This document shows positions 23,866 to 44,314 of a stretch of DNA of 64,000 nt, piece by piece. The translations under genes were made by a program, and so were the position numbers. The stretch comes from Blastomonas sp. SL216 (lineage in GTDB: Bacteria; Pseudomonadota; Alphaproteobacteria; Sphingomonadales; Sphingomonadaceae): the NCBI GenBank assembly GCA_026625625.1, contig CP113055.1:3331001-3395000 (forward strand), read 5' to 3'. The notes beneath the pieces are model-generated. The model was not told the DNA's origin. It did no database searches and saw nothing but the letters and a program-made list of their open reading frames with translations. Each line of letters begins with the position of its first letter. Position 1 is the first letter of the stretch.

Positions 23866-25641
23866 GTGCTGGATTTTGTGAACCGCATGGTGAGCTGGCG
23901 GACTTTGAATTGGCAGACCGGTCGCAAGGCCGCGATTGATCGTGCGGTTTCCCTGGCCTTGGTAGCCACAGTGCTGGGCCTGCCTGGCCTGGCCCAGGCC
24001 CAGGCGATCCCGGGCAACGTGCGCCCGCCTGCCGGCACGTTCGAGCGCGAGAACCGCGAGGCGGAGGTGCCGCTCTCCACGCCGCGCACGCCCTTTACCA
24101 TCGATCGCCCGCGCACCGACCCGAGCAGCGTTGACGATACCGCCAAGGTGCGCGTCACCAAGTTCCGCATCACCGGCTTCAACTATCTCGACGAGGACCG
24201 GCTGCAGGCGCCGCTCAAGCCGTTCCTGGGCCAGGAACTGACGCTGGCGGACATCTACCGCGCCGCCGATCTGCTGACGCGTGTCTATGCAGATGCCGGT
24301 TTTGCGCTCTCGTTCGCCATCGTGCCCGCGCAGGAAATCGCCAATGGCGTCGTCGTGCTGCAGGTGGTCGAAGGCAGCGTCGATGCGCTGGAGGTGCAGC
24401 TGAAATCCGAGGCGGGGCTGGTCGGCAAGACCCGGCTGACCGAGATGATCCGCCGCCGCTTCACCCCGCTCATCAAGCGCGGACCGGTAATGGTCGACGA
24501 GCTGGAGCGCGCGATCCTGACGACCGGCGATCTGGGCGGGCTCGACGTATCGGTGGTTGTCCGCCCGTCCGAGGCGACGCCGGGCGCGGCCAACCTGCTC
24601 GTGGTGGTCAATCTCGATCCGCTCGAGGTCGAGGCGCAGTTCGACAACCGGATCCGCGATAATCTGGGCGAGCGCCGGTATCGCGCCGGGGCCACCGCCA
24701 ATTCGGTCCTGGTGCCGGGCGACCAGCTGGTCGCCGATGTGCGCGCGACCATACCGACCGATGGCTTTGTCTCGGGCTTCGTGCAGTATAGTGCGCCGAT
24801 CACCGATGACGGGCTGGTCGGAACCGTCAGCTATTCGCGCGCCCGGTCGCGCGCAGTGCGCGGTTTCCTCTCCATCCTGCAGTTCCGCGGCGAGGAAGAG
24901 GTGGTGCGTGCCGGCCTCAGCTATCCGCTCCGCCGCACGCGCAATTCCAGCCTGATCGTCGGGCTGGAAGGCACGGCGATCAATTCGGACAGCGGCATCT
25001 TCGGCGTGACGCTGATCGACGATCGCAGCCGGTTCTACGAGCTGTACGGCAGCTATGACTGGGCCGCCGCCGATGGCAGCGTCGGGCTGTTCCGGCTGGG
25101 GCTGAGCCAGGGGATTGACGGGCTGGGCGCGACCGGGCGGTTCAACCCGCTGCGCAGCCGCACCCAGGGCGATCCCGAGTTCACGTCGCTCAACGGCTCG
25201 CTGGTGTGGACCGCGCCGCTGATCGGCACCGCGCGGTTCCGCGTCAATGCCGAGGCGCAGATCGGCCTCAATGGCGGCGCGTCGGCATCGCGCGAGTGCA
25301 ACTTCGGCGGCGACCGCTTCGGCCGGGCCTATGACTATGGCGCGGCGGGCGGCGACCATTGCGTCAACGTGGCGATCGAGGTCAACGACCGGCTGAGCTA
25401 TGGCGGGATCACGGTGCAGCCGTTCCTGTTCGTCGATGCCGGCATTCTGCGGCAGAGCGGGCGGCTGGATTTTGCAGAGCTGCGCGTCACCGAATTGTGG
25501 TCGGCAGGCGGGGGTTCGCGCATCGCGCTGCCTTATGGGCTGTTCGGTGAGGTCTATGCCGCCTGGCCCGGCAAGTCGCGCTTCACGCCGGACGGCAGCA
25601 GCGACCCGCGCATCTTCTTCTCGATCGGGGCAACACGATGA
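23866..25641 (+). CDS. TpsB/FhaC-type two-partner secretion transporter
   Basis: This outer-membrane protein of the ShlB/FhaC/HecB family exports the giant exoprotein encoded next. The 591-aa product has a signal peptide ending near LAQAQA (about residue 46), a linker, one clear POTRA domain (VTKFRITGFNYLDEDRLQ, about 103-185) and a second weaker one, then a 16-strand barrel. The conserved loop-6 motif appears as GGDRFGRAYDYG at about residues 481-492, flanked by two cysteines 21 positions apart that could form a disulfide. Start is uncertain: GTG 23866 or ATG 23887. The last four bases overlap the exoprotein start (ATGA). Confidence 0.93.
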   Translation: MLDFVNRMVSWRTLNWQTGRKAAIDRAVSLALVATVLGLPGLAQAQAIPGNVRPPAGTFERENREAEVPLSTPRTPFTIDRPRTDPSSVDDTAKVRVTKFRITGFNYLDEDRLQAPLKPFLGQELTLADIYRAADLLTRVYADAGFALSFAIVPAQEIANGVVVLQVVEGSVDALEVQLKSEAGLVGKTRLTEMIRRRFTPLIKRGPVMVDELERAILTTGDLGGLDVSVVVRPSEATPGAANLLVVVNLDPLEVEAQFDNRIRDNLGERRYRAGATANSVLVPGDQLVADVRATIPTDGFVSGFVQYSAPITDDGLVGTVSYSRARSRAVRGFLSILQFRGEEEVVRAGLSYPLRRTRNSSLIVGLEGTAINSDSGIFGVTLIDDRSRFYELYGSYDWAAADGSVGLFRLGLSQGIDGLGATGRFNPLRSRTQGDPEFTSLNGSLVWTAPLIGTARFRVNAEAQIGLNGGASASRECNFGGDRFGRAYDYGAAGGDHCVNVAIEVNDRLSYGGITVQPFLFVDAGILRQSGRLDFAELRVTELWSAGGGSRIALPYGLFGEVYAAWPGKSRFTPDGSSDPRIFFSIGATR

Positions 25642-28600
25642 GCCTGTATCGCAAGCAGCGCCACGGCGCGCGGCATTTCCCCAGCTGGCAGGTGGCTTTG
25701 CGCACCGGCGTGGCGGGCTTTGCCTTTGTCGCTGCCCAGACCGCCTATGCCAATCCGAACGGCGGGCAGGTGGTCGCGGGCCAGGCGACGATCAACGGTC
25801 AGGGCACCGGCCGGGTGCGGATCGACCAGGCCAGCGACCGGGTCGTCATCAACTGGGACAATTTCTCGATCAATCTGGGCGAGGGCGTCGACTTCCGCCA
25901 GCCCAACAGCCGCTCGGTCGCGCTCAACCGCGTCACCGGGCCGGAAATCAGCCAGATCATGGGCGAGCTCACCGCCAATGGTCAGGTCTATCTGATCAAT
26001 GGCAACGGCATCGTCTTCGGCAAGGACGCGAAGGTCGATGTCGCGGGGCTGGTCGCGACGAGCGCGGATATCGGCAACGAGGCGTTCATGGCAGGCGGCG
26101 CGCTTCGCTTCGGAACGCCGGGCCGGGCCGGGGCGAAGGTCACCAACCACGGCACGATCACGGTGCGCGATGCGGGCATCGCCGCGTTCGTCGCGCCGCA
26201 GGTCGCCAATGACGGCATCATCACCGCGCATATGGGCCGCATCGCCTTTGGCGGCGCGCAGGCCTTCACGCTCGATCTGCACGGCGACAATCTGATCCGC
26301 TTCCAGGTCGGCGATGCGGTGACGAAGCTCGACGACAAGGGCGCGCTGGTCGGCATCGACGGCGTCGTCGATGCGCGCGGCGGATCGGTGCTGATCACGG
26401 CTTCGGCGGCGCGCGATCTGGTCAACCAGTCGGTGCGCATCGGCACGCCCCAGGCCGCCAGCCTGCAGACCGGGCCTGATGGCAAGGTTTCGCTGGTCGC
26501 CGCCAAGGTCGCGATCACCGCGCCGGGGGAGGTGCAGGTCGGCCGCAATGTGGCGATGGACCTGTCGTCGGCCACCAACGCGGTGACCACCGGCAGCGCC
26601 AAGGGCAAGGGCGGCAAGGCCAGCAGCAATACCGAAAGCAATATCGGCTGGGTCGGGTCGCTGAATGGCGATGGCAGCGCGCCGGGCCAGGCCATGGCCA
26701 CCAGCGGGTCTGGCGGCACGCTGACGATCAGCGCCGCCCGCACGATCCTGGATGGCACGATCAACCTCGACGGCAGCAAGACCGGCGGCACCGCGCACAT
26801 CACGGGCAGCGATTTCCTGTCCTTTGGCTCGATCCTGTCGGCCAGCGGCGTGGATGCGGGCGGCAAGATCCAGCTCGATGCGGGCGGCTTCTCGCTGGCC
26901 GGGCGGATCACGGTCAACGCCGCGCTCGGCAAGGGCGGCAGCGTCGATATCCGCACCAGCCGCCGCGCGATCGATACCGGCGATGCGTTCATCGATGCAA
27001 GCGGCCTGCATGGCGGGTCGATCCGCTATGTCTCGGACGATCAGATCATCTCCTCGGGCAAGTTCCGTGCCTCGGGCAGCCATGGCTTTGGCGGCAATAT
27101 CGATGTCAGCGCGCCCAGGCTCGACCTGTTCTCGGCGCAATTCTATGCCCAGGGCGGCATCCGCGGCGGCCGGGTGCGGCTGGGCGGCGAGTTCCAGGGC
27201 GGCCAGAATCTGGTGGCGGACGAGCTGCCCAATGCGCTGAGACTGGTTGCCACCGACGCGGTGACGATCGACGTCTCGGCCATCGGCATGCGCGGCAATG
27301 CGGGCGAGATCGTCATCTGGTCCGACGAGAAGACGACCTTCCTCGGCAATGCGATTGCGCGCGGCGGGCTGGTCGGCGGCCTGGGCGGGCAGATCGAGAT
27401 TTCGGGCAAGGAGACGCTGGTCTATCGCGGCACGGTGGAAACCGCGCGCGACGGCCAGCGCGGCGGTACGCTGCTGCTCGACCCCAAGAACATCATCATC
27501 GCCGATGGCGTCAACGCGCCCAGCCAGTACGGGCTGGTGCTGCAGGCCTTTGCGAGCGCCTTCCCGACGTCGCCGCCTGCGCAGCCGGGGTTGGAGGCGG
27601 GCGATGGCCTCGAACTTGCGGTCTCGCTCGATGGCAACAGGCTTGCTCTTGGCGTGCGCGGCGACGATGGTTCCGGCAATGCGCGAAATGACGCAGGCGC
27701 TGTGTATCTGTTCAGCTTTGCCGATAGTGGTTTTTCGACGCCCGTGCTCTCCGCCGTTATCGGATCGGGTTATAGCGGCGGCAACAACATCTCGGTCGCC
27801 GCGCTGGAGGCTGACGATATCTTCGGCCATTCGGTTTCTCTGGACGGAAACCGGCTGGCGGTATCGGCACGCGGCGATGACGGTGAATCCAACGGTTTCG
27901 GTGGTGCCGGGGCCGTCTATCTGTTCACCTTTGCCGATGCCGCCTTTACCGGCGGACAGCTGCGCGCCGTGCTGGGTGCGGGCTATAGTGGCGGCTCGAA
28001 CCTGTCGGTCGACAATCTGGAGGCCGGGGACCTTTTCGGGCAGAGGGTATCGCTCAACGGAAACCGGCTCGCAGTAGGCGCGATGTTCGATGACGGCGCG
28101 GGCAACACCGTTCAGGATGGCGGCGCAGTCTATCTCTTCACCTTTGCTGACAGTATCTTCTCGACCCCGAGCCTCGCAGGGATCATCGGCCAGGGTTACA
28201 GCACCCGTCCGAATGACCTGTCCGTTACCCTTGATGTCGAAGACTTTTTCGGCGGTGGTGTTTCGCTCGATGGCAACAGGCTGGCAGTCGGTGCATTCGG
28301 CGATGACGGCCTGGGCAACAGCTTTGTCGGCGGCGCGGTCTATCTGTTCAGCTTTGCCGATGCCACCTTTGGCAGCGCCGCGCTGGAAGGCCGGATCGGT
28401 GGCGGATATACCGGCCCCAAGGACTTCAACCTTCCGAACCTCGATGGCATCGGCCGCGACCATTTCGGCGATGCGGTGTCGCTGGACGGCAATCGTCTGG
28501 CCGTTCTCGCAAGGCTCGATGACGGTTTGAGCGACAGCGTCGCCAATTCCGGCGCGGTCTATCTCTTCACCTTTGCCGACGCGGGCTTTGCTGCACCCAA

Positions 28601-31600
28601 TCTGGCCGCGCGGATCGGCATCAATTACGGCACTCTGGGCGGTAGCAACCTTTCTATCCTGGGCATGGAGGCTGGCGACACGCTTGGCGACGTTGCACTT
28701 GATGGCAACCGGCTTGCGATGGCGTCGCTGGGCGATGATGGCCGCGCCAACACGGTCGCCGATTCGGGTGCGGTCTATCTTTTCACCTTTGCCGATGCCC
28801 AGTTCAACGGCGGCCGACAGGTCGGCACGCTGGGGGCCGGCTATACCGATGCGCTGGGCCTGTCGCTGATCGGCAAGGGCCTGGAGCAATCGGACAGCTT
28901 CGGCGTATCGGTGGCGCTCAATAGCAACCGGCTGGCCGTCGGCGCGCTGCAGGATGATGGTCAGGACAATGCCAACCCGGATTCGGGCGCGGTCTATCTG
29001 TTCACCTTTGGCGACGCGCGCTTCAGTGGCCCGGTGCTGCAGTCGATCATCGGATCGGGCTATTCGGGCGGCAAGAACATTGCGGTCGCCCGGCTTGGCG
29101 CTGGCGATGCCTTCGGCGCATCGGTGGCGCTGGATGGCCTGCGGCTGGCGGTGGGTGCGCCGAACGATGCCGGGTTGAACGACACCGCGACCGGGGCTGG
29201 CGCGGTCTATCTGTTCACCTTCACCGAGGCCGACTTTACCGGCGGTGCCTTGGCCAGGCTGGTCAATTTCGAGACGCTTGATCCGGCAGGCGGCACCATC
29301 CGTGCCAATGGATCGCAATTGGGCACAGCCGTGGCGCTGCAGGGCAATATCCTGGCGGTGGGCGCTGCCGGGGATGCAGGCGCAACCGGCTCGGGCAGCA
29401 ATCTGGGCGCGGTGCACCTGTTCGATGTCGGCGGTCCTGCGTTTTCATCGACCCCGATCCGCCTGGTCACGATCGGCAAGGACTATACCGGCACCAACGA
29501 TATCGGCATGCCCGATCTGGGCGAGTCTGACCGGTTCGGCAGCGCGGTGTCGCTGGACGGACTGCGCCTGGCGGTGGGTGCGCCGGGTGACGACGGCTTC
29601 AACGACGACTTTTTCAATACGGGCGCAGCGTTTCTCTACACCTTTGGTGCGTCGAATTTCTCGGGCGGTTCGCTGGAAGCGACCATCGGTGCCTTCTACC
29701 CCGGATCGTTCGACTTCACGCCGATCGGCATCGGCACCGGGGGTACCGATCAGGACTTTTTCGGCAGTTCGCTGGTGCTCAAGGGGCTGCAACTCGTCGT
29801 CGGCGCGGAAGGCGATGACGGCGCCAGTGACAGCGTCTCCAATTCGGGCGCGGTCTATCTGTTCACCTTTGCGGCACCGACGTTCGGGGGGATCAGCCAG
29901 GCTGGGGTGATCGGTGCAGGTTATAGCGGGAACATCAGCTTTCCGCTGAAGCTGAATGCCGATGACGGTTTTGGCCGCGGCCTGGCCTTTGATGGCGACC
30001 GGTTGGCGGTCGGCGCGCCGGGCGATGACGGCAAGGGTGTCATCGCGGGCGGCGCGGGCGCGGTCTATCTGTTCACCTTCGGCAGCCCGGGCTTCAATGA
30101 GGCCCGGCTGGTCGATACTCTGGGTTATGGCTATACTGGCCAGCGCAATCTTTCCGTTTCGGGGCTTGGCCTGACGCCGGCATCGCTGGGCGACCGGTTC
30201 GGCTCGGCAGTGGTGCTGGATGGCTTGCGGCTGGCGGTTGGCGCGCCGGGCAATGCGGGGCCCGATGGAACGGGATTCGAAAACGGGGCGGTCTATCTCT
30301 TTTCCTTCGCCGATCTCGCCTTTGGCGCGCCGGTGCTGGAGGGGATCATCGGCAGCGGCTATACCGGCGGCAAGAACATCGCCATGTCGGGATTCTTCGG
30401 CCCGGATTTCGGCGAGGCCATTGCGCTGGATGGTAACAGGCTGGTGGTCGCGGCACCCGGGCATTCCGGCAACGGCAGCCCGGTTGGGGTCGGCGTTGGT
30501 ACCGTTTATCTGTTCACCTTTGCCGACGCGCTTTTCACCGATGGCGCACTCGTTGGCAGGGTCGGTCAGGGCTATACCGATAGCCAGAGCATCGACGTTC
30601 CGACATTGGAAAGTTTTGATCGCTTCGGCACGGCCGTGGCCTTGCGCGGCAACAGTCTTGTGGTCGGTGCGCCGGGTGATGACGGGCAAGGCAATTCCTT
30701 GGCCGATTCCGGTGCTGTCTATCTTTTCACCTTTACCGATGCAGCTTTCAACGGGGGCGTACAGCAGGGCTATATCGCCAGCGGGGCACCTGCTGCCGGC
30801 AAGAACATCAACCTTACACAGCTTGATTCAAACGACAACTTCGGCAGCTCGGCCGCTCTGGGTGCTTCCGGCACCCGGCTGTTCATTGGCGCGCCAGGCG
30901 ATGCCGGATCAGGCAATGTGTCTACTCTGGTTGGCGCAGTCTACGAATTTGCCTTCAGCAGCGCAGCCTTTGATTCCGGCACGCTGACGGGCACTATCGG
31001 TCTGGGTTATACCGGGCCAAGCGATGTCAATGTCGCCGGCATCGGGTCCGGTGACCTGTTTGGTTTTTCAGTGGCTTTCGACGGGTCCCGGCTGGCGATC
31101 GGTGCCATTACCAAGGACTATGGCCCATTGACCGATGTCGGCCAGGTCTATCTGTTCACCCAGCCGTCGACGGCATTCGTGCTGTCTGGAATCATCGGCA
31201 AGCTGGGCAGCGGCAACAGCGATCTTGCGATCGGCAGCCTGGATTCCGACGACTATTTTGGATCTTCGGTTTCGTTGAACCTCAACCGGCTGGTCGTCGG
31301 CGCGCGTGGCGATGATGGTTTGAACGATACCGTCAACGGTGCCGGTGCGGTTTACCTGATCAGCTTTGCCGGTGGCTTCTTCGACCCGCCGATCCTTGCC
31401 GGTACCCTGGGTGCAGGCTATGGCGCGCAGTCCAACCAATCGGCCCTGCTGGTCAATTCCGGCAACAATCTGGGCGGATCGGTCGCGCTGCGGGGCAACC
31501 GGCTGGCCATCGGCGTGCCGGGCAGCAATGCCGCCAACGGCGGCGGCGTGGATGTCGGCGCGGTCTATCTGTTCACCTTCCTGAACGATGATTTTGCGGC

Positions 31601-34600: not shown

Positions 34601-37600
34601 GTTCAGCTTTGCCGGGCCGCAGTTCCAGTCGGGTGCGCTGGAGGCGATCCTTGGCCTGGGCTTTGATGCCGGCAGCAAGGATCTGGACATTCTCAATCTG
34701 GAGGACGGCGATGCTTTCGGCTGGTCCGTCTCGCTGGATGGTACAAGGCTGGCGGTTGGCGCGCGCGGCGACGATGGGGACGCGAACAGTCTGACCGATG
34801 CCGGTGCCGTCTATCTGTTCACCTTTACCGACCTGGTGTTTGCAGGCGGCGTCCAGCAGGGGATTGTCGGGGCGAGCTATAACGGACCCGGCGATATCGA
34901 CAATGTGCTGACGCCGTTCGGAATGGGCTCGAGCAGCTTTTTCGGATCGTCCGTCGCGCTGGATGGCAACCGTCTGGCTATTGGTGGTCCACGGGTCACC
35001 AGTACCATCGCCAGCCCGGCCGGTTCGGGCGCAGTCTATCTGCTGACCTTTGCCGACAGCAGCTTTGGCGGCGGGACAATTGTCGAGATATTGGGCAAGG
35101 GCGCGCCGAATTTCGGCGCGAACGCTGATTTCGATGTCGCACTCGACGCCTTCGATCTGTTCGGCAGCACCGTATCGCTCGATGGCAACCGGCTGGTGGT
35201 CGGTGCGCCGGGCGATGACGGCTTCGGCAATTCCGGTGCGGTGGACGATTCCGGTGCGGTCTATCTGTTCACCTTTGCGGACGCGGCCTTTGCCGGTGCA
35301 AGGTTGGCCGGCAATATCGGCTCGGGCTATACGCGCGGGGCAAGCACCCCGGTTGCAGGGGTTGAGGCCGGAGAATTCTTCGGCTGGGCGCTGTCGCTGG
35401 ATGGCACGCGGCTGGCGGTCGGCTCGAGTGGGGATAACGGCGCCGAAGGTCTCACCGGGTTTGCCGGTGCGGTGTATCTGTTCACCTTTGGCAACCTGGA
35501 TTTTGGCGCACCGACGCTGCAGGGCATATTGGGTGCAGGCTATACCGGCGCCAAGAGCCTCGATGTGCCAGGGATTGCTGCAGCGGCAAGTTTCGGCGGC
35601 GCGGTGTCGCTCGATGGCAACCGGCTCGCCGTTGGGGCCTCCAACCTCGTCAATGGCGGGACGGTCTATCTGTTCACCTTCAGCGATGCGCTGTTCAGCT
35701 CTCCGGTGCTGGCCTCGCGGATCGGAGCGGGTCTGGTTGGCCCCAATGATCTTTCGGTGAGTACCGAAGGGGGAGATTTCTTCGGCTACTCGGTGTCGCT
35801 TGATGGCAACCGGCTTGCAGTCGGCGCGCTGGGCGATGATGGCGCGAGCAACAGTCTCTCCGATTCGGGTGCGGTCTATCTGTTCAGCTTCGCCGATGCT
35901 GCGTTCGCGGGGCCGGTGCAGGAAGCGATCATCGGATCGGGCTATACCGGTGGCAAGAACATCGATCTCGCCGCGCTGCAAGCCGGCGACTTTTTCGGAT
36001 CCTCGGTATCGCTGCAGGGGCTGCGGCTGGCTGTCGGTGCAGAGAATGACGACGGCTTCGACAACAGCGCGATTTCGGCCAATTCCGGCGCGGTCTATCT
36101 GTTCACGATGGCTGCCCCCGATTTTTCGGGCATCACGCGCGCGGGCACCATCGGCCGCAATTATACGGGGGCGGGCGACCTCAACATCGGCCGTCTGGGT
36201 TCGAACGACTGGTTCGGCCGGTCGGTTTCGCTCGACGGCAACCGGCTTGTGGTGGGTGCGGTCAATGATGCCGGGGCAACCGACAGCATGCCCGGTTCCG
36301 GCGCGGTCTATCTGCTGGGCTTTGCCGATGCGGCGTTCGGTACCCCGTCGCTGCTTTCGATCTTCGGCAGCGGCTATTCCGGCGCAGCGGATATCAATGT
36401 TGCCGGTCTCGATACCCTGGACTTTTTCGGCAACGGCCTGTCGCTCGATGCCGGAAGGCTGGTGATCGGCGCTCCGTTTGCTGACGGTCCCGACAATCTG
36501 GTGGCGGATTCCGGCGCGGTCTACTTCTTCAATCTCTCTGGCGGAACCGCCGGCCTCCCGGGTCTCGGCTTTGGCGACAACCCCGGCGCTGATGTGACGA
36601 TCAGCGCCACCGCGCTGGCGGCGATCCTTTCCGGCGGCACCGGTGTCACGCTCCAGGCGAACAACGACATCACGATCAATTCTGCCATCACGGTGAACAA
36701 TTCGTCGGGCAATGGCGGCAATCTGCGCTTCCAGGCGGGCCGGTCGATCTTTGTCAACGCCGGTATCACCACCGACAATGGCCGCCTCGACCTGCTGACC
36801 AACAATATCCTGATCCCCGGTGCGATCGATGCCTTCCGCGATCCCGGCGCTGCGGTCATCACCTTCGGTGCCGGTGGGTTCGTCAACGCCGGCACGGGCG
36901 ACGTGTTTATCGAAATCGGTCCCGGTGCCAACCTGACCCATCCCGAATCCGGCGCAATCACGCTCGGCAATATCACCGCGGGCACCATCAATGTGCTCAA
37001 TGCAGGCTTTGCCACCCCCGGTCAGGAAGTGATCATTCCCAGCGGCGTCGTGCTGAACGCCAGCGGCAGCGAAACCGCGATCACGGTGATCGGCGGCATA
37101 TTCACCAACAATGGCGGGCCGGGCGCGTTCAACATGACCGGCGGCGGGCGCTTCCTCGTCTATTCGAACGATTATGACGTCATCGAGCGCGGCGGGCTGG
37201 TCGGCAACAATCTCTATAACCGCGGCTTCCAGCTCAATCCGCCGGGATCGATTACCCAGCCGGGCAATCTGTTCATCTTCTTCCGCCAGCCGATCCTGAC
37301 CTTTACTGCGGATGATGTCACCCGCACCTATGGCCAGCCATCATCGGGCTATACCTTCCTGGTCAGTGGCCTGGTCAATGGTGACACCGATTCCTACGCC
37401 TATAGCGGCCTGCCCAACCTGTTCGATACGGCTTCAGGCAATGCCGGGCTGGATTCGATCTTCATCGATTCAGGGTCGCTGTTCTCCGATGTCGGCTATG
37501 GCTTCAACTTTGTCGGTGGCACGCTGACCACGCTCAAGGCGCTGCTGACCGTTACCGCCGACGATACCAGCCGCGAATATGGCCTGGGCAACCCGCTGTT

Positions 37601-40600
37601 CACCGCGAGCTATTCGGGCTTCGTCAATGGCGACGATGCATCCGTGATCAGCGGTCTCGATTTCCTGACCGTCGCCACGACCGCCTCGGACGTCGGCACC
37701 TATGCGATCACCCCGTTCGGGGCTTCGGCCAACAATTACGACTTCAGCTATGTTCCGGGCACATTGACGATCACCAAGGCACTGCTGACGGTGACGGCGG
37801 ACAATGCGTCGCGCGAATATGGCCTCGCCAATCCGGTCTTCACCGGGAATATTGCCGGCTTCCGCAATGGCGATACGCCGGTTGTCATCAGCGGGCTGAC
37901 CTATGCCACGGTGGCGACCACCGCTTCGCCGATCGGCACCTATGCGATCACCGGATCGGGCGCGACGGCGACCAACTATGATTTCAGCTATATCCCGGGC
38001 ACGCTGACAATCACCAAGGCGTTGCTGACCGTCACAGCGGACAACGCGACGCGCGAATATGGTCTGGCCAACCCGACCTTCACCGGATCGATCACCGGCT
38101 TCCGCAACGGCGACACCAGCAGCGTGATCAGCGGGCTGACCTATGGGTCGGTCGCGACGACCGCTTCACCGGTAGGCACCTATGCGATCACCGGCTCGGG
38201 CGCGAGCGCGACCAACTATGATTTCAGCTACGTCCCCGGCACGCTGACAATCACCAAGGCGTTGCTGACGGTGACGGCAGACAACGCGACGCGCGAATAT
38301 GGCCTCGCCAACCCGACCTTCACGGGCTTGGTCACGGGCTTCCGCAATGGCGACACCAGCAGCGTCATCAGCGGGCTGACCTATGGCTCGGTGGCAACGA
38401 CCGCTTCACCGGTAGGCACCTATGCCATCACCGGTTCCGGCGCGACCGCGACCAATTATGATTTCAGCTATGTCCCCGGCACACTGACGATCACCAAGGC
38501 ATTGCTGACGGTCACCGCCGACAACGCGTCGCGCGAATATGGCCTTGCCAACCCGACGTTCACCGGATCGATCACCGGCTTCCGCAATGGCGATACGGCC
38601 AGCGTGGTCAGCGGCCTGACTTATGGCTCGGTGGCAACGACGGCCTCGCCGATCGGCACCTATGCGATCACGGGATCGGGCGCGACCGCAACCAACTATG
38701 ACTTCAGCTATGTGCCCGGTACGCTGACGATCACCCGCGCGCTGCTCACGGTGACCGCCGACAATGCGACGCGCGAATACGGCCTCGCGAACCCGACCTT
38801 CACCGGCACGATCAGCGGCCTGCGCGCAGGCGATACCGCAAGCGTCGTCAGCGGACTGGTCTATGGCACGACGGCGACGGCAGCATCGAATGTCGGGACG
38901 TTCGCGATCACCGCCTCGGGCGGCACCGCAGCGAATTACGACTTCGCCTATGTTCCTGGCACGCTGACGATCACCAGGGCCCTGCTGACGGTGACGGCGG
39001 ACAATGCGAGCCGCGAATATGGTCTGGCGAACCCGACGTTTACGGGTTCGGTCACCGGCTTCCGCAATGGCGACACCAGCAGCGTCATCAGCGGGCTGAC
39101 CTATGGGTCGGTGGCAACGACCGCTACACCGGTAGGCACCTATGCCATTACTGGATCGGGCGCTAGCGCGACCAATTATGACTTCGCCTATGTCCCCGGC
39201 ACGTTGACGATCACCAGGGCATTGCTGACGGTGACGGCGGACAACGCGACACGCGAATATGGCCTTGCCAACCCCACGTTCACCGGATCGATCACCGGCT
39301 TCCGCAATGGCGATACGGCGAGCGTGGTCAGCGGGCTCACTTATGGCTCGGTTGCGACGACGGCCTCGCCGATCGGCACCTATGCGATCACCGGATCGGG
39401 CGCGACCGCGACCAATTACGACTTCAGCTATGTGCCCGGTACGCTGACGATCACGCGCGCATTGCTCACCATCACCGCCGACAATGCGTCGCGCGAATAC
39501 GGCCTCGCCAACCCCACATTCACCGGCACGATCAGCGGCCTGCGCGCGGGCGATACGGCGAGTGTCGTCAGCGGTCTCGTCTATGGCACGACGGCAACGA
39601 CCTCGAGCAATGTCGGCACGTTCGCGATCACCGCCTCGGGCGGCTCGGCCGCGAACTACAACTTCGCCTATGTCCCCGGCACGCTGACGATCACCAGGGC
39701 CCTGCTGACCGTGACGGCGGACAATGCGAGCCGCGAGTACGGACTTGCGAACCCGACGTTCACGGGCAGCATCTCCGGCTTCCGCAACAGCGATACCGCG
39801 AGCGTGATCTCGGGCCTGGTCTATGGCTCGGCGGCGACAGCGGCATCGAACGTTGGGACGTTCGCGATCACCGGCTCGGGTGCGAGCGCGACCAACTATG
39901 ACTTTGCCTATGTGCCGGGCACGCTGACGATCACCAGGGCACTGCTGACGGTCACCGCGAACAACGCGACCCGCGAATATGGTCTGGCCGATCCGGCCTT
40001 CACCGGCAGCATCACGGGCTTCCGCAACTCGGATACGACCAGCGTGGTGTCCGGCCTTGTCTACGGCAGCACGGCGGTGCTCAACTCGGGCATCGGCACC
40101 TATGCCATCAATGGCTCGGGTGCGAGCGCCACCAACTATGACTTTGCCTACGTCCCGGGCACGCTGACGATCACGCGCGCGCTGCTGACGGTGACCGCCG
40201 ATAGCGCGACGCGCGAATATGGCCTACCGAACCCCGTATTCACCGGCACGATCAGCGGCTTTCGCGCGGGCGATACCGCCAGCGTGATTTCCGGCCTGAC
40301 CTTCGGCAGCACGCATCTTCCCTCCCAGGGCGTCGGCACCTATGCGATCAACGGGGCTGGCGCGAGCGCGACCAATTATAACTTTGCCTACGTTCCGGGC
40401 ACGCTGACGATCACCAAGGCGCTGCTGACGGTGACGGCGGACAATGCTTCGCGTGAATATGGCCTCGCCAACCCGACGTTTACGGGCACAGTAACCGGCT
40501 TCCGCAATGGCGACACCAGCAGCGTGATCAGCGGGCTGACCTATGGATCGGTCGCAACGACCGCTTCACCGGTAGGCACCTATGCGATCACCGGTTCCGG

Positions 40601-43600
40601 CGCAACCGCGACCAACTATGATTTCAGCTATGTCCCCGGCACGTTGACGATCACCAAGGCATTGCTGACGGTCACCGCCGACAACGCGTCGCGCGAATAT
40701 GGCCTCGCCAACCCGACGTTCACCGGATCGATCACCGGCTTCCGCAATGGCGATACGGCCAGCGTGGTCAGCGGCCTGACTTATGGCTCGGTGGCAACGA
40801 CGGCCTCGCCGATCGGCACCTATGCGATCACGGGATCGGGCGCGACCGCAACCAACTATGACTTCAGCTATGTGCCCGGTACGCTGACGATCACGCGCGC
40901 ATTGCTGACCGTCACGGCAGACAATGCGTCGCGCGAATACGGCCTCGCCAACCCCACATTTACCGGCACGATCAGCGGCCTGCGCGCAGGCGATACCGCA
41001 AGCGTCGTGAGCGGACTCGTCTATGGCACGACGGCGACGGCTGCGTCGAATATCGGGACGTTCGCGATCACCGCCTCGGGCGGCTCGGCAGCGAACTATG
41101 ACTTTGCCTATGTCCCCGGTACGCTGACGATCACCCGCGCGCTGCTCACCGTCACGGCGGACAATGCGTCGCGCGAATATGGCCTTGCCAACCCGACCTT
41201 CACCGGATCGATCACCGGCTTCCGCAATGGCGACACCAGCAGCGTGATCAGCGGGCTCACCTATGGCTCGGTCGCAACGACCGCTTCACCGGTGGGCACC
41301 TATGCGATCACCGGTTCCGGCGCGAGTGCGACCAATTACGACTTCGCCTATGTCCCCGGCACGCTGACGATCACCAGGGCATTGCTGACGGTCACCGCCG
41401 ACAACGCGTCGCGCGAATATGGCCTCGCGAACCCCACGTTCACCGGATCGGTCACCGGCTTCCGCAATGGCGATACGGCGAGCGTGATCAGCGGCCTGGT
41501 CTATGGCAGCAACGCGGTGCTGAATTCGGGCATCGGCACCTACGCGATCACTGGCAGTGGTGCGACATCGACCAATTACGACTTCAGCTATGTTCCCGGT
41601 ACGCTGACAATCACCCGCGCTCTGCTCACCGTCACCGCCGACAACGCGACGCGCGAGTACGGCCTCGCGAACCCGACCTTCACCGGCACGATCAGCGGCC
41701 TGCGCGCAGGCGACACGGCGAGCGTCGTGAGCGGCCTCGTCTATGGCACCACGGCGACGGCTGCGTCGAATATCGGGACGTTCGCGATCACCGCATCGGG
41801 CGGCACCGCAGCGAACTATGACTTTGCCTATGTTCCAGGCACGCTGACGATCACCAAGGCGTTGCTCACCGTCACCGCGAATAACGCATCGCGCGAATAT
41901 GGCCTGGCCAATCCGGCGTTCACCGGATCGGTCACGGGCTTCCGCAATGGTGATACGGCCAGCGTCATTTCCGGGCTGGTCTATGGATCGGTCGCGACCA
42001 TCGCAAGCAATGCCGGCAGCTATGCCATCACCGGATCGGGCGGCACCGCAGCCAATTATGACTTTGCCTATGTTCCAGGCACGCTGACGATCACCAAGGC
42101 GCTGCTCACTGTCACGGCGAACAACGCGTCGCGCGAATATGGCCTCGCCAACCCGACCTTCACCGGATCGGTCACCGGCTTCCGCAATGGCGATACGGCC
42201 AGCGTCATTTCCGGGCTGGTTTATGGCTCGGTGGCAACGACCGGATCGGCGGTGGGCAGCTATGCGATCACCGGATCGGGTGCGAGCGCGACCAATTACG
42301 ATTTCGGCTATGTTCCCGGCACGCTCACGATCACGCGGGCGCTGCTGACGGTTACCGCCGACAATGCGTCACGCGAATACGGCCTGGCGAACCCGACGTT
42401 CACCGGCACCATTGCAGGCTTCCGCAACGGTGATACCGCCAGCGTGATTTCCGGCCTGACCTTCGGCACGGTGGCAACCGCTGGCTCGGCGGTGGGCAGC
42501 TATGCGATCACAGGTTCGGGCGCGAGCGCAACCAACTATGACTTCGCTTATGTGCCCGGCACGCTGACGATCACGCGCGCATTGCTCACCATCACCGCCG
42601 ACAATGCGTCGCGCGAATACGGCCTGGCCAATCCGGCCTTCACCGGCACCATTTCCGGCCTGCGCAATGGCGATACCGCCAGCGTCATTTCCGGCCTGAC
42701 GTTTGGTTCGGTCGCCGTGACCGGGTCCAATGTGGGCAGCTATGCGATCACGGGATCGGGCGCTTCGGCGGCCAACTACAATTTCGCCTATGTGCCGGGC
42801 ACGCTGACCGTCACCAGAGCGCGGCTGACCGTGACCGCCGATGGCAAGACCCGCGAATATGGCCTCGTCAATCCGGCGCTGACCAGCACGATCAGCGGGC
42901 TGCGCAACGGCGATGCGGCCAGCGTCGTCAGCGGCATTGTGCTGTCGACCAGCGCCACCCAGGCCTCGGGCGTGGGCAGTTATGCCATTGGCGTTTCGGG
43001 CGGCAGCGCGCTCAACTACGATTTCGACTATGTCCCCGGCACGCTGGCGATCACGCCTGCCACGCTGACGGTCGCGATCGACAGCAAGACGCGGCAATAT
43101 GGCGCCGCCAACCCGGCGCTCACCGCCAGCATCAGCGGCTTCCGCAATGGCGATACCGAACAGGCGGTGACCGGCTTGCGGCTCAACACCGGTGCGAATG
43201 CGCGCAGCAATGTCGGCAATTACGTCATCCTGGGATCGGGCGCTGCGGCAGCGAACTACCGGTTCGATTATGTTCCGGGCACGATGACGATCACCAAGGC
43301 ACTGCTGCAGGTGCGCGTCAACAATGCCAGCCGCGAATATGGCCTGGCCAACCCTGTCTTCACCGCCAGCATCAGCGGCCTGCGCAACGGCGATACGGCC
43401 AGCGTCGTCACCGGGTTGACCTTCGGCACGCCGGCCACGATCGGATCGGATGTCGGCATCTATGCGATCACCGCATCGGGCGGGTCGGCGCTGAACTATG
43501 ATTTCAGCTATATCCCCGGCCGTCTGACCATCAACCAGGCGCAGCTGCTGATCACCGCCGACAGCAAGACGATGACTCAGGGCAGCAGCGATCCGCTTCT

Positions 43601-44270
43601 GACCGTCAGCTATTCGGGCCTGCGCAACGGCGATACCAAGGATGTGGTGACCGGGCTGGTGCTGCGGTCGTCGGGTGGCGGCAATGCGGCGCCCGGCCAA
43701 TATGTCATCAACGCCTCGCGCGGGACGGCGCGCAACTATCAGATCACCTATCGCCCCGGCGTGATGACCGTGTTGCCTGCGGTCGCGCCGCCTGCGCAGA
43801 ATCCTCCGGGCACCGGAGGTTCGCCAAACCCGCCGACGACATCGACGCCGCCGGTGGTCATCACCGTGCCGCCGATCACGCTGCCGATCGCTGGCGGCAA
43901 TGTGACCCCGCCGCCCGCTACAGGCACCGCGACGCCGGATCCCGCCGCTGCACCGTTGCCCCAGCCGCCACAGGCCGGGACTTCGACTACTGCCCCTGCT
44001 GCTGGCACCAGCGCCACCGCGTCGGTGATGGCGATGCCCGCGCAAGGGGCGGTCAACCTGCCGGTGCCGCCGGAAAGTCTCTCGCCGATGCAGGTGCTTC
44101 AGGGCCTGTCCGCGCCGCTGCCGGTGCTGGTCTCGCCCGAATTGCGACCTGCCGACAGCAGCGCCCCCAGTGGCGCGTCGCAGGGCGATAGACAGCGCAG
44201 CGGGTGCGAGTATATCAGCCTGTGCAATGGCACCGCCGTTCCCCTGTGGAGCTGGCAGCCTGTCCAATAA
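25638..44270 (+). CDS. Giant TpsA-type exoprotein/adhesin with FG-GAP-like and MBG repeats
   Basis: One uninterrupted frame encodes 6210 residues. Residues 1-38 are an extended signal peptide (cut near TAYA/NPNGG). Residues about 39-270 are the TPS (haemagglutination activity) domain with 'VVINWDNFSINLGEGVDF' and 'VYLINGNGIVFG'. About 270-650 is a Gly-rich beta-helix. About 650-3634 holds some 42 FG-GAP-like repeats. About 3635-3885 is another helix-like stretch. About 3888-6048 carries MBG-type repeats of exactly 80 residues. A Pro/Thr/Ala linker and a C-terminal SGCEYISLCNG end the protein; these are the only cysteines I found. It is predicted to be a secreted or surface-tethered adhesin for attachment or biofilm; the ligand is unknown. 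Its transporter lies directly upstream. Confidence 0.96.
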   Translation: MSLYRKQRHGARHFPSWQVALRTGVAGFAFVAAQTAYANPNGGQVVAGQATINGQGTGRVRIDQASDRVVINWDNFSINLGEGVDFRQPNSRSVALNRVTGPEISQIMGELTANGQVYLINGNGIVFGKDAKVDVAGLVATSADIGNEAFMAGGALRFGTPGRAGAKVTNHGTITVRDAGIAAFVAPQVANDGIITAHMGRIAFGGAQAFTLDLHGDNLIRFQVGDAVTKLDDKGALVGIDGVVDARGGSVLITASAARDLVNQSVRIGTPQAASLQTGPDGKVSLVAAKVAITAPGEVQVGRNVAMDLSSATNAVTTGSAKGKGGKASSNTESNIGWVGSLNGDGSAPGQAMATSGSGGTLTISAARTILDGTINLDGSKTGGTAHITGSDFLSFGSILSASGVDAGGKIQLDAGGFSLAGRITVNAALGKGGSVDIRTSRRAIDTGDAFIDASGLHGGSIRYVSDDQIISSGKFRASGSHGFGGNIDVSAPRLDLFSAQFYAQGGIRGGRVRLGGEFQGGQNLVADELPNALRLVATDAVTIDVSAIGMRGNAGEIVIWSDEKTTFLGNAIARGGLVGGLGGQIEISGKETLVYRGTVETARDGQRGGTLLLDPKNIIIADGVNAPSQYGLVLQAFASAFPTSPPAQPGLEAGDGLELAVSLDGNRLALGVRGDDGSGNARNDAGAVYLFSFADSGFSTPVLSAVIGSGYSGGNNISVAALEADDIFGHSVSLDGNRLAVSARGDDGESNGFGGAGAVYLFTFADAAFTGGQLRAVLGAGYSGGSNLSVDNLEAGDLFGQRVSLNGNRLAVGAMFDDGAGNTVQDGGAVYLFTFADSIFSTPSLAGIIGQGYSTRPNDLSVTLDVEDFFGGGVSLDGNRLAVGAFGDDGLGNSFVGGAVYLFSFADATFGSAALEGRIGGGYTGPKDFNLPNLDGIGRDHFGDAVSLDGNRLAVLARLDDGLSDSVANSGAVYLFTFADAGFAAPNLAARIGINYGTLGGSNLSILGMEAGDTLGDVALDGNRLAMASLGDDGRANTVADSGAVYLFTFADAQFNGGRQVGTLGAGYTDALGLSLIGKGLEQSDSFGVSVALNSNRLAVGALQDDGQDNANPDSGAVYLFTFGDARFSGPVLQSIIGSGYSGGKNIAVARLGAGDAFGASVALDGLRLAVGAPNDAGLNDTATGAGAVYLFTFTEADFTGGALARLVNFETLDPAGGTIRANGSQLGTAVALQGNILAVGAAGDAGATGSGSNLGAVHLFDVGGPAFSSTPIRLVTIGKDYTGTNDIGMPDLGESDRFGSAVSLDGLRLAVGAPGDDGFNDDFFNTGAAFLYTFGASNFSGGSLEATIGAFYPGSFDFTPIGIGTGGTDQDFFGSSLVLKGLQLVVGAEGDDGASDSVSNSGAVYLFTFAAPTFGGISQAGVIGAGYSGNISFPLKLNADDGFGRGLAFDGDRLAVGAPGDDGKGVIAGGAGAVYLFTFGSPGFNEARLVDTLGYGYTGQRNLSVSGLGLTPASLGDRFGSAVVLDGLRLAVGAPGNAGPDGTGFENGAVYLFSFADLAFGAPVLEGIIGSGYTGGKNIAMSGFFGPDFGEAIALDGNRLVVAAPGHSGNGSPVGVGVGTVYLFTFADALFTDGALVGRVGQGYTDSQSIDVPTLESFDRFGTAVALRGNSLVVGAPGDDGQGNSLADSGAVYLFTFTDAAFNGGVQQGYIASGAPAAGKNINLTQLDSNDNFGSSAALGASGTRLFIGAPGDAGSGNVSTLVGAVYEFAFSSAAFDSGTLTGTIGLGYTGPSDVNVAGIGSGDLFGFSVAFDGSRLAIGAITKDYGPLTDVGQVYLFTQPSTAFVLSGIIGKLGSGNSDLAIGSLDSDDYFGSSVSLNLNRLVVGARGDDGLNDTVNGAGAVYLISFAGGFFDPPILAGTLGAGYGAQSNQSALLVNSGNNLGGSVALRGNRLAIGVPGSNAANGGGVDVGAVYLFTFLNDDFAAPILAGAIGQGFTGVNNFDVGVLQSGDRFGASVSIDGLRLAIGAPGDDGAADDRTDSGAVYLFSFADLFFGSPVLEARMGRGYTGFKNVAVADLAANDRFGSGVALQGLQLAVGVPGDDGAADDRTNAGAAYLFTFTNTIFNGGERAGTIGVGYNTIAADFSLAGLDPGDRFGTSLSLSGLGLAIGAPGDAGLNDDAPDAGAVYTFTFANAAFGSLTTAATIGRSYDGPNDLSVAGVDAGDSFGASVSLDGFRLAIGSPGDAGSAGGRPNVGAVYLFTFADSSLTTATESGRIGAGYGGALNLLSIVGLDDGDNFGSGVAIDQGRLVIGAAGDDGQSVFDDSYGALYQFTFAENFRSLTQIGLIGSGYGNGPTNSLAAYGIGLNERFGSAVSLQGLALAVGSPEDSGGLSTSFPIGAVYLFSFADLAFNAPVLQSIIGFGYTGGKNIAVANLGANDRFGISVHLSSGGLLTVGADGDDGFGDSGNDRGAAYLFNFVDGLFSGGSLQGIIGSGYSGPGNFDIALDDNDFFGAAVASQEQYLAIGAPGDDGSGNPGTVDNSGAVHLFQLGAGSIGQIGTIGSGYTGTGNFNLAPLAFNDGFGTSLSLQSGQLVVGAPNDEGAGDVGGVSSAVGAVYAFTFTPATPFAGLAHVSTIGLGYTGANDLDVINLGVGDRFGSGVSIDGNRLAIGSHLDGGAINDRTSAGAVYLLSFADAALTSPNLQAIIGVGYTGGKNIAIGLEDIDVFGTSVALDGNRLAVGAPGDGGAGNILGSSGAVYLFTFADAAFNNGKLAGTLGAGYRRMLASNLAAPAAPILPQVGGGDSFGSAVSLDGLRLAIGAQDDDGSTDSLPNAGAVYLFTFADLQFGGAALQSVIGHGYVGGKNIFVTQLDGGDRFGAAVSLDGNRLAVGAPFDSGASNSVGDSGAVYLFSFADALFGGGTLEAIAGADYSGGKNLTVADLQASDRFGTSVSLDGNRLAVGAVGDDAAGNPPALARETGAVYLFSFAGPQFQSGALEAILGLGFDAGSKDLDILNLEDGDAFGWSVSLDGTRLAVGARGDDGDANSLTDAGAVYLFTFTDLVFAGGVQQGIVGASYNGPGDIDNVLTPFGMGSSSFFGSSVALDGNRLAIGGPRVTSTIASPAGSGAVYLLTFADSSFGGGTIVEILGKGAPNFGANADFDVALDAFDLFGSTVSLDGNRLVVGAPGDDGFGNSGAVDDSGAVYLFTFADAAFAGARLAGNIGSGYTRGASTPVAGVEAGEFFGWALSLDGTRLAVGSSGDNGAEGLTGFAGAVYLFTFGNLDFGAPTLQGILGAGYTGAKSLDVPGIAAAASFGGAVSLDGNRLAVGASNLVNGGTVYLFTFSDALFSSPVLASRIGAGLVGPNDLSVSTEGGDFFGYSVSLDGNRLAVGALGDDGASNSLSDSGAVYLFSFADAAFAGPVQEAIIGSGYTGGKNIDLAALQAGDFFGSSVSLQGLRLAVGAENDDGFDNSAISANSGAVYLFTMAAPDFSGITRAGTIGRNYTGAGDLNIGRLGSNDWFGRSVSLDGNRLVVGAVNDAGATDSMPGSGAVYLLGFADAAFGTPSLLSIFGSGYSGAADINVAGLDTLDFFGNGLSLDAGRLVIGAPFADGPDNLVADSGAVYFFNLSGGTAGLPGLGFGDNPGADVTISATALAAILSGGTGVTLQANNDITINSAITVNNSSGNGGNLRFQAGRSIFVNAGITTDNGRLDLLTNNILIPGAIDAFRDPGAAVITFGAGGFVNAGTGDVFIEIGPGANLTHPESGAITLGNITAGTINVLNAGFATPGQEVIIPSGVVLNASGSETAITVIGGIFTNNGGPGAFNMTGGGRFLVYSNDYDVIERGGLVGNNLYNRGFQLNPPGSITQPGNLFIFFRQPILTFTADDVTRTYGQPSSGYTFLVSGLVNGDTDSYAYSGLPNLFDTASGNAGLDSIFIDSGSLFSDVGYGFNFVGGTLTTLKALLTVTADDTSREYGLGNPLFTASYSGFVNGDDASVISGLDFLTVATTASDVGTYAITPFGASANNYDFSYVPGTLTITKALLTVTADNASREYGLANPVFTGNIAGFRNGDTPVVISGLTYATVATTASPIGTYAITGSGATATNYDFSYIPGTLTITKALLTVTADNATREYGLANPTFTGSITGFRNGDTSSVISGLTYGSVATTASPVGTYAITGSGASATNYDFSYVPGTLTITKALLTVTADNATREYGLANPTFTGLVTGFRNGDTSSVISGLTYGSVATTASPVGTYAITGSGATATNYDFSYVPGTLTITKALLTVTADNASREYGLANPTFTGSITGFRNGDTASVVSGLTYGSVATTASPIGTYAITGSGATATNYDFSYVPGTLTITRALLTVTADNATREYGLANPTFTGTISGLRAGDTASVVSGLVYGTTATAASNVGTFAITASGGTAANYDFAYVPGTLTITRALLTVTADNASREYGLANPTFTGSVTGFRNGDTSSVISGLTYGSVATTATPVGTYAITGSGASATNYDFAYVPGTLTITRALLTVTADNATREYGLANPTFTGSITGFRNGDTASVVSGLTYGSVATTASPIGTYAITGSGATATNYDFSYVPGTLTITRALLTITADNASREYGLANPTFTGTISGLRAGDTASVVSGLVYGTTATTSSNVGTFAITASGGSAANYNFAYVPGTLTITRALLTVTADNASREYGLANPTFTGSISGFRNSDTASVISGLVYGSAATAASNVGTFAITGSGASATNYDFAYVPGTLTITRALLTVTANNATREYGLADPAFTGSITGFRNSDTTSVVSGLVYGSTAVLNSGIGTYAINGSGASATNYDFAYVPGTLTITRALLTVTADSATREYGLPNPVFTGTISGFRAGDTASVISGLTFGSTHLPSQGVGTYAINGAGASATNYNFAYVPGTLTITKALLTVTADNASREYGLANPTFTGTVTGFRNGDTSSVISGLTYGSVATTASPVGTYAITGSGATATNYDFSYVPGTLTITKALLTVTADNASREYGLANPTFTGSITGFRNGDTASVVSGLTYGSVATTASPIGTYAITGSGATATNYDFSYVPGTLTITRALLTVTADNASREYGLANPTFTGTISGLRAGDTASVVSGLVYGTTATAASNIGTFAITASGGSAANYDFAYVPGTLTITRALLTVTADNASREYGLANPTFTGSITGFRNGDTSSVISGLTYGSVATTASPVGTYAITGSGASATNYDFAYVPGTLTITRALLTVTADNASREYGLANPTFTGSVTGFRNGDTASVISGLVYGSNAVLNSGIGTYAITGSGATSTNYDFSYVPGTLTITRALLTVTADNATREYGLANPTFTGTISGLRAGDTASVVSGLVYGTTATAASNIGTFAITASGGTAANYDFAYVPGTLTITKALLTVTANNASREYGLANPAFTGSVTGFRNGDTASVISGLVYGSVATIASNAGSYAITGSGGTAANYDFAYVPGTLTITKALLTVTANNASREYGLANPTFTGSVTGFRNGDTASVISGLVYGSVATTGSAVGSYAITGSGASATNYDFGYVPGTLTITRALLTVTADNASREYGLANPTFTGTIAGFRNGDTASVISGLTFGTVATAGSAVGSYAITGSGASATNYDFAYVPGTLTITRALLTITADNASREYGLANPAFTGTISGLRNGDTASVISGLTFGSVAVTGSNVGSYAITGSGASAANYNFAYVPGTLTVTRARLTVTADGKTREYGLVNPALTSTISGLRNGDAASVVSGIVLSTSATQASGVGSYAIGVSGGSALNYDFDYVPGTLAITPATLTVAIDSKTRQYGAANPALTASISGFRNGDTEQAVTGLRLNTGANARSNVGNYVILGSGAAAANYRFDYVPGTMTITKALLQVRVNNASREYGLANPVFTASISGLRNGDTASVVTGLTFGTPATIGSDVGIYAITASGGSALNYDFSYIPGRLTINQAQLLITADSKTMTQGSSDPLLTVSYSGLRNGDTKDVVTGLVLRSSGGGNAAPGQYVINASRGTARNYQITYRPGVMTVLPAVAPPAQNPPGTGGSPNPPTTSTPPVVITVPPITLPIAGGNVTPPPATGTATPDPAAAPLPQPPQAGTSTTAPAAGTSATASVMAMPAQGAVNLPVPPESLSPMQVLQGLSAPLPVLVSPELRPADSSAPSGASQGDRQRSGCEYISLCNGTAVPLWSWQPVQ
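27592..36540 (+). repeat. Array of about 42 FG-GAP-like repeats (about 213 bp each)
   Basis: Each unit follows FG-x-SVSLDGNRLAVGAP, then GDDG-x-N, then SGAVYLFTFADA, then IGSGYTGG-N, with an average length of 71 residues. Copies vary from about 63 to 80 residues and differ widely in sequence, so the array is old. The pattern matches integrin-type FG-GAP blades, which build seven-bladed propellers. By hand I counted 42 copies, which would equal six propellers of seven. The count should be treated as accurate to within one or two. Confidence 0.85.
37302..43780 (+). repeat. Array of 26 phase-locked 240-bp MBG-type repeats plus one degenerate copy
   Basis: From 37561 onward a unit of exactly 240 bp (80 residues) recurs 26 times without any length change, starting at 37561, 37801, 38041 and so on to 43561. 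The core is NASREYGLANPTFTG, then GFRNGDTASVISGL, then GTYAITGSG, then NYDFSYVPGTLTITKALLTVTAD. A divergent copy with three extra residues begins near 37302. The end copies are diverged and the central ones are nearly identical. This is the YGxxNP/GDT pattern of MBG (immunoglobulin-like) adhesin modules. Confidence 0.93.
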
Positions 44271-44300: not shown

Positions 44301-44314
44301 AAAGTGTGATCCCA

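Follow-up and report, generated by a model that had tools for sequence, protein, structure and literature searches.

Multiples of six FG-GAP units in the head of a giant two-partner secretion exoprotein of Blastomonas

The gene pair and its parts

The window analysed in the present study, a stretch of 64,000 nucleotides from the genome of Blastomonas sp. SL216, carries a gene pair of the two-partner secretion (type Vb) kind. The transporter gene tpsB terminates in ATGA and thereby overlaps by 4 bp the start of tpsA, a single open frame of 6210 codons plus stop (25638-44270, + strand). Both hallmarks of the system were found, namely an N-terminal TPS domain in the exoprotein and an adjacent TpsB of the POTRA/ShlB type. 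Pfam recovered POTRA_2 (PF08479) and ShlB (PF03865) in TpsB, and TPS (PF05860, E 2.3e-30), FG-GAP_2 (PF14312) and MBG_2 (PF18676) in TpsA, which was searched piecewise and whose TPS domain was also matched by adhes_NPXG (TIGR01901). From its N-terminus, TpsA runs through a signal-like segment, the TPS domain, a beta-helix-like part, the FG-GAP array, a bridge, the MBG_2 array, a proline-rich tail and a cysteine pair. HMMs built from its own repeats counted 42 FG-GAP units (residues 652-3635; ~71 aa each) and 27 MBG units (residues 3883-6044; 80 aa each). An earlier note, made from the sequence alone, had described a 6210-residue protein combining a TPS domain with FG-GAP and MBG arrays on an uninterrupted frame that overlaps its transporter gene by 4 bp, and had called for a database domain search; frame, Pfam matches and HMM counts all bear this description out. 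The parts of the locus are the following.

23866-25641, +: TpsB outer-membrane transporter; POTRA_2 at residues 96-170, ShlB barrel at residues 249-550
25638-44270, +: TpsA exoprotein, 6210 aa; open frame with 4-bp overlap with TpsB
25749-26540, +: TPS secretion domain, residues 38-301 (PF05860, 2.3e-30; TIGR01901)
26541-27503, +: beta-helix-like stretch of the head, ending with the LLLDPKNIII strand (high genus-wide conservation, motif comparison)
27591-28880, +: FG-GAP units 1-6, putative propeller 1 (HMM, lag test)
28881-30188, +: FG-GAP units 7-12, putative propeller 2 (HMM, lag test)
30189-31454, +: FG-GAP units 13-18, putative propeller 3 (HMM, lag test)
31455-32741, +: FG-GAP units 19-24, putative propeller 4 (HMM, lag test)
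32742-34046, +: FG-GAP units 25-30, putative propeller 5 (HMM, lag test)
34047-35360, +: FG-GAP units 31-36, putative propeller 6 (block modelled with AlphaFold2; missing in G004 by averaged alignment)
35361-36542, +: FG-GAP units 37-42, putative propeller 7; the last unit ends after its third strand (HMM)
36543-37283, +: bridge to the stalk, beta-helix-like again, VTISATALAAIL...LQANNDIT...QAGRSI (sequence comparison)
37284-43769, +: 27 MBG_2 units of ~80 aa, stalk of variable length (Pfam, HMM)
43770-44201, +: proline-rich tail (read from the translation)
44202-44267, +: C-terminal GCEYISLC...PLWSWQP with cysteine pair, candidate anchor ("cysteine hook"; 6/6 loci)
44306-44887, +: IalB-domain protein, next gene (PF06776, 1.6e-20)

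The IalB match lies 3' of tpsA in all five orthologous loci that reach that far, one of the five being cut by the locus end. Two further calls are probably spurious: an open frame of 1287 aa that runs antisense to the head (25554-29417, - strand), probably a high-GC shadow, and a tRNA-Gly called by ARAGORN at 48738-48829 (- strand), which lies within an open frame of 520 aa but on the opposite strand.

Conservation in Blastomonas

A search of 40 genomes recovered TpsB orthologues at 83-92% identity in all eight other genomes of the genus, and the same TpsA layout accompanies each of them, with three loci cut by contig ends (L024, L027 and L029, left out of the full MBG counts). The heads of the orthologues (residues 1-650) share 83-92% identity with the window protein. 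Five orthologues have their 3' end on the contig, and each of these is one open frame of 4618-6536 residues with the same kind of C-terminus, although that of L030 runs across 94 N inside the stalk; these five and the window itself (6/6 loci) all have the C-terminal cysteine pair and the PLW motif. In the 28 pairwise comparisons of eight orthologues, which excluded the 36-unit locus, dN/dS was ~0.15 for the head and 0.33 for the array. Head and FG-GAP array alike appear to be under purifying selection, and 25638-44270 is evidently more than a chance ORF. Furthermore, the window genome is one 3.86-Mb contig and G006 (2 contigs) holds an uninterrupted TpsA frame of 6536 residues, which makes an assembly artefact unlikely.

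Identity among orthologues falls from 88.5% in the head to 56.5% in the array, with 63.6% in the bridge. Positive selection on the array was considered on account of this low identity and set aside as less likely, since the array has a dN/dS of 0.33 and elevated synonymous differences as well (pS 0.59 in the array, 27504-36542, vs 0.35 in the head). The raised pS points to array exchange or older divergence rather than to selection alone; lineages may have exchanged arrays, which would account for the divergence. The array has thus diverged widely among the orthologues, with its unit count nearly fixed.

The same genome contains a second FG-GAP/MBG TPS locus (G000:C1:1695661-1712000; L021, L022, L031), with TpsB downstream. 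Its exoprotein reads across four separate frames (1152, 1520, 767 and 2543 residues), which may reflect decay, assembly error or phase variation.

FG-GAP units come in multiples of six

Eight of the nine Blastomonas loci hold 42 FG-GAP units and the ninth (G004), from a metagenome-assembled genome, holds 36. When this shorter array was aligned to the 42 positions with averaged scores, exactly units 31-36 were missing, that is, one in-phase block; under best-match scoring the gaps are spread across 33-40, but the best single block again begins at 31.

Wider array searches, in genome sets that overlap, covered the family (328 genomes), the order (296), the class (385) and the phylum (398 and 249), together with 72,556 plasmid records that gave one match. 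They brought 15 further arrays besides the paralogue in the window genome, and all of these hold 6, 12 or 18 units: 18 in L077-L080, L138, L185 and L183, the last beginning at the contig edge; 12 in L081, L082, L139, L140, L186, L182 and L184; and 6 in L141. For L182 (Comamonas) the HMM gave 11, one match spanning two units by eye; for L184 a 13th HMM match, a strand only, was removed; and the 18 of the paralogue consist of 17 by HMM and one degenerate last unit by eye. Altogether, 25/25 arrays of the long FG-GAP unit (nine Blastomonas loci, one paralogue and 15 others, with L032-L038, which are Blastomonas loci, counted once) have 6n units, four of the counts (paralogue, L182, L183, L184) being by judgement. 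Nine of the 15 others (L138-L141, L182-L186) were collected after the rule of six had been noted, and all nine fit, three with judgement. Genomes with weak matches only (G085, G322, G330, G508, G633, G840, G920, G931) and G1106, cut at the contig start, were left out of the counts. Pfam found a TPS domain in the paralogue and in 12 of the 15 other array proteins; of the remaining three, L138 and L183 are truncated at contig ends, and in L078 the frame starts inside the head.

Five different counts imply at least four changes, each of them a multiple of six, for which we estimate, as a rough inference, a chance of ~1 in 1300, assuming one in six per change and with arrays that are not all independent.

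The similarity between units carries the same number. In a lag test of the eight 42-unit arrays (8 x 41 units), period 6 reached z 7.5 and period 7 z -2.1; similarity was highest at lags 6, 12 and 18, and periods 2, 3 and 12, all with factors in common with 6, were raised too. The test was extended to nine of the 15 other arrays (L141 being too short, and L182-L186 and the paralogue not in the set): period 6 was top among periods 3-9 in eight of them, with p < 0.05 in seven. The period-6 p value of L079 was 0.06 only, the 12-unit array of L081 had the opposite sign and no period of six, and in L138 period 7 was raised too (p 0.01).

As controls, we used FG-GAP_2 proteins without a TPS domain. 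Pfam gave seven stretches in four of the six scanned (L142, L143, L146, L147) and five and four in two frames of L145, L144 lying outside the scan; HMM A4 gave seven units in four of seven control frames (L142, L143, L146 and the 699-aa frame of L145), six in the 440-aa L145 frame (cut by the region), six in L147 and four in L144. Seven blades per ring, the mark of the integrin-type FG-GAP propeller, is found neither in the counts nor in the period of the TPS-borne arrays.

The MBG_2 stalk varies in length

In the six loci whose 3' end is on the contig, the MBG counts are 27, 9, 19, 13, 31 and 12, the last being that of L030, uncertain with the 94 N in its stalk. Mean identity between units of one array is 45-47% for FG-GAP and 50-72% for MBG; the best MBG pairs are identical (1.00) in three of the four arrays checked, and counts differ from 9 to 31 between species. 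The higher identity of MBG units, which would ease recombination, may explain the variation in their number, and the lower identity of FG-GAP units, with rarer recombination, may explain part of the stability of 42. The fixed 42 within the genus could thus also reflect diverged, rarely recombining units; ease of recombination does not account for multiples of six.

Outside the orthologues, the paralogue has 41 MBG matches over its pieces. Among the 15 other array proteins, some of them cut by locus ends, the window-built MBG HMM found one to six units in seven and no match in eight. Therefore, the FG-GAP insertion is more widespread than the long MBG stalk, which appears to be a Blastomonas feature in this sample. 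The MBG stalk that the earlier note placed after the propeller set is confirmed by 27 MBG_2 units, the domain that forms the stalk of the TPS adhesin CdrA. Its judgement that the layout is unusual stands. A long MBG stalk after the array is, in our sample, a trait of Blastomonas alone; FG-GAP arrays in TPS proteins as such are present in other genera as well.

The array is inserted in one turn of the TPS beta-helix

Before the array stands the motif LLLDPxNI, and after it LQAxNDIT...QAGRSI. In nine proteins without FG-GAP units (L043, L154-L160, L187), all nine of which have a TPS domain, both motifs lie 15-33 residues apart. The array is therefore inserted into a single turn of a helix that is otherwise continuous. 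The docking turn is not universal, given that four relatives of the TPS head (L040, L042, L044, L046) matched the first motif and not the second, and that L184 has an array and lacks the first helix motif.

The same turn also receives other repeats. L041, a Verrucomicrobia TPS protein (frame from 9143), has there, by eye, 14 short FG-GAP units, 2 x 7, and was kept apart from the 25 long-unit arrays. In L164, L165 and L166, a different repeat (GAVTWGxGT...SxSNSLVG...) occupies the turn, with about 15, 14 and 6 units by eye; the TPS domain of L164 was confirmed by Pfam, and the repeat is possibly another type of propeller. As the 15 and 14 of L164 and L165 do not fit, the rule of six is claimed for the long FG-GAP unit only. 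A lone strand before unit 1 clearly beats shuffles in 8 of 14 arrays, the window array not among them, so that its role as a closing strand is treated here as hypothetical.

Structure prediction of the FG-GAP units

AlphaFold2 predicted the block of units 31-36 with confidence (pLDDT 87.6, pTM 0.88), from a 55-row alignment of such blocks whose borders we had set ourselves. The model has 24 strands in six sets of four, and the strand of the preceding unit, outside the six-unit block, stays at low confidence. A 16-unit model without set borders was weak (pLDDT 69.5, pTM 0.48), so six-fold closure was not found blind; its confidence drops at the 6/7 and 12/13 borders, but at many other places too. 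In Foldseek, the top match of the long model was Elp2, a tandem WD protein, followed from rank 2 by integrin alpha chains, and the 50 matches listed for the six-unit block were all integrin chains (best E 1.6e-15). For these, the TM score normalised by the query was 0.42-0.50 and the rmsd 6-11; we take the low query-normalised TM to mean that blades of the integrin kind make up a ring of a different size. A phmmer search of ~15 units against the PDB sequences gave no match to E 1. Repeat motif (PF14312), predicted model and Foldseek matches agree in assigning the units to the FG-GAP type.

The best reading of the 42 units is seven six-bladed propellers, unlike the seven-bladed integrin types, with ring closure a prediction throughout and above all for the blocks outside the modelled one. 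The earlier note had pictured a cluster of propeller-like heads near the TPS end and had proposed segment-wise structure prediction. That prediction succeeded for the six-unit block (pTM 0.88), and the propeller-like cluster stands, with the predicted block and the integrin matches behind it; sevens of the integrin type give way to sixes. The layout needs correction in one point: by the motif comparison, the array sits within the beta-helix, which continues after it.

Discussion

The layout of this TpsA, the rule of six, the insertion site, the confidently predicted six-unit fold of one block and the varying length of the stalk are results of computation; what they add up to is best discussed beside known systems. 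In CdrA of Pseudomonas aeruginosa, a 220-kDa protein, the N-terminal tip is carried 70 nm outwards by MBG_2 domains and a cysteine hook keeps the C-terminus in CdrB (PMC7616799); MBG_2 repeats form the CdrA stalk (PMC7616799; PMC9704523), and 15 repeats make about 71 nm overall (PMC9704523). The likeness to CdrA/CdrB lies in the adjoining TpsB, a variable number of MBG_2 domains after an N-terminal head and a C-terminal cysteine pair (PMC7616799, PMC8201768, PMC9704523). In the Blastomonas TpsA a stalk of 27 MBG units likewise follows the head, vs 15 in CdrA; the protein has about three times the mass, as judged from its length against the 220 kDa of CdrA (PMC7616799), and it differs from CdrA by the 42 FG-GAP units inserted in the head. 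Periscope proteins are described as a class with stalks of variable length (PMC8201768). Blastomonas TpsA may resemble them in its similar MBG units, whose number varies from 9 to 31 between relatives, and departs from them in a second array that changes, in this sample, only by a whole set of six and has units ~45% identical. With the FHA/HMW1-type TPS adhesins it shares the TPS domain, the beta-helix and the ShlB-type transporter; these are not known to have propellers or an MBG stalk.

We regard it as likely that the Blastomonas TpsA is a CdrA-like two-partner adhesin with propellers at its outer tip, an MBG_2 stalk and a C-terminal anchor in TpsB. On this proposal, TpsB would thread TpsA out, and the TPS domain would start a beta-helix that forms the outer tip. 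One turn of the helix would bear the chain of 42 FG-GAP blades, which would close into seven six-bladed propellers, after which the helix would resume and lead into the stalk of 27 MBG_2 domains, while the C-terminal cysteine pair would hold TpsA in TpsB. The propellers would offer a variable, multivalent binding surface, and the number of MBG domains would set the reach. The outer position of the tip and the anchor are suggested by analogy with CdrA, which would place the seven propellers on a longer stalk, perhaps beyond 100 nm. Adhesion as such, and binding by the propellers, are likewise presumed from analogy. VCBS-like propellers are typically linked with carbohydrate recognition (PMC9218822), and the varied loops of 42 blades may make many weak contacts, e.g., with polysaccharide or other cells.

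Large TpsA proteins include toxins. With this background and an IalB-domain gene next to tpsA, one may ask if the protein is an adhesin at all: it might be a matrix scaffold, either shed or carrying enzymes, or serve for delivery in the manner of contact-dependent inhibition. We consider this unlikely, as no toxin or enzyme domain rose above the Pfam cut-off in the pieces searched (a DEC1 match stayed below it), the C-terminus is a conserved short tail with a cysteine pair and not a variable domain, and MBG_2 stalks are known from CdrA.

Very unlikely, in our judgement, is a single continuous superstructure of 42 units that does not close, its period of six stemming from duplication of whole blocks alone. 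Block duplication is indeed visible, period 6 being strongest in L139 and L140, and the overall confidence of the 16-unit model is low; against such a structure, the six-unit block alone was predicted with high pTM and the preceding strand poorly outside it, the dips of the long model fall on the 6/7 and 12/13 borders among other places, and the 50 Foldseek matches listed for the block are all to integrin chains, proteins in which FG-GAP units close into rings. That the array folds as integrin-type seven-bladed propellers (42 = 6 x 7), with the sixes elsewhere a coincidence, is a reading that we favoured first, with 42 divisible by 7, seven Pfam stretches in most controls, 14 short units by eye at the same site in L041, and bacterial FG-GAP domains described as 7-bladed, sometimes 14 (PMC3192720), and that we then dropped as highly improbable, because the counts of 36, 18, 12 and 6 are no multiples of 7, the lag peak is at 6 with period 7 negative, and the averaged alignment has the 36-unit array lacking one block of six.

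Six-bladed propellers, our preferred reading, share with the bacterial integrin-type FG-GAP propellers the FG-GAP_2 repeat and the integrin chains among their best structural matches. They would differ from the 7-bladed ones described in PMC3192720 by their sets of six, their ~71-aa units and the up to seven of them in line, and also in that the Blastomonas set is carried by a TPS beta-helix. It is quite possible, if somewhat doubtful, that the docking turn takes whole propellers, so that six-bladed sets (1, 2, 3, 6 or 7 of them) are gained or lost only complete and independently of stalk length, with other repeats filling the turn elsewhere. The lone strand would then close the last blade, and the propellers would form a loop shut at the helix.

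FG-GAP arrays in TPS proteins are present in every Blastomonas genome examined and in other genera, and we found no description of such a protein in the literature, as searched by titles and the starts of abstracts, with subscription papers mostly out of reach. Beyond the earlier note, the analysis brings out the sets of six, the docking turn and the way in which the number of heads is uncoupled from the length of the stalk. Relatives that differ by whole sets of six blades suggest that head number and reach evolve separately; if the docking reading is true, the valency and the reach of one adhesin would evolve as two separate dials. Nature would then supply a set of adhesins with quantised heads (6, 12, 18, 36 and 42 blades) that can be compared with stalk length across species, effects of valency and reach on bacterial attachment could be tested with natural variants, and a six-bladed branch would be added to a propeller family described as seven-bladed. 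More generally, repeat counts offer a test of blade number that needs no structure, and the insertion turn is a place to look for heads in other giant TPS proteins that are unannotated. Additionally, a plasmid of Comamonas antarctica (L182, 12016-23829) carries a 12-unit TPS array adjoining its transporter gene; such heads can therefore sit on plasmids.
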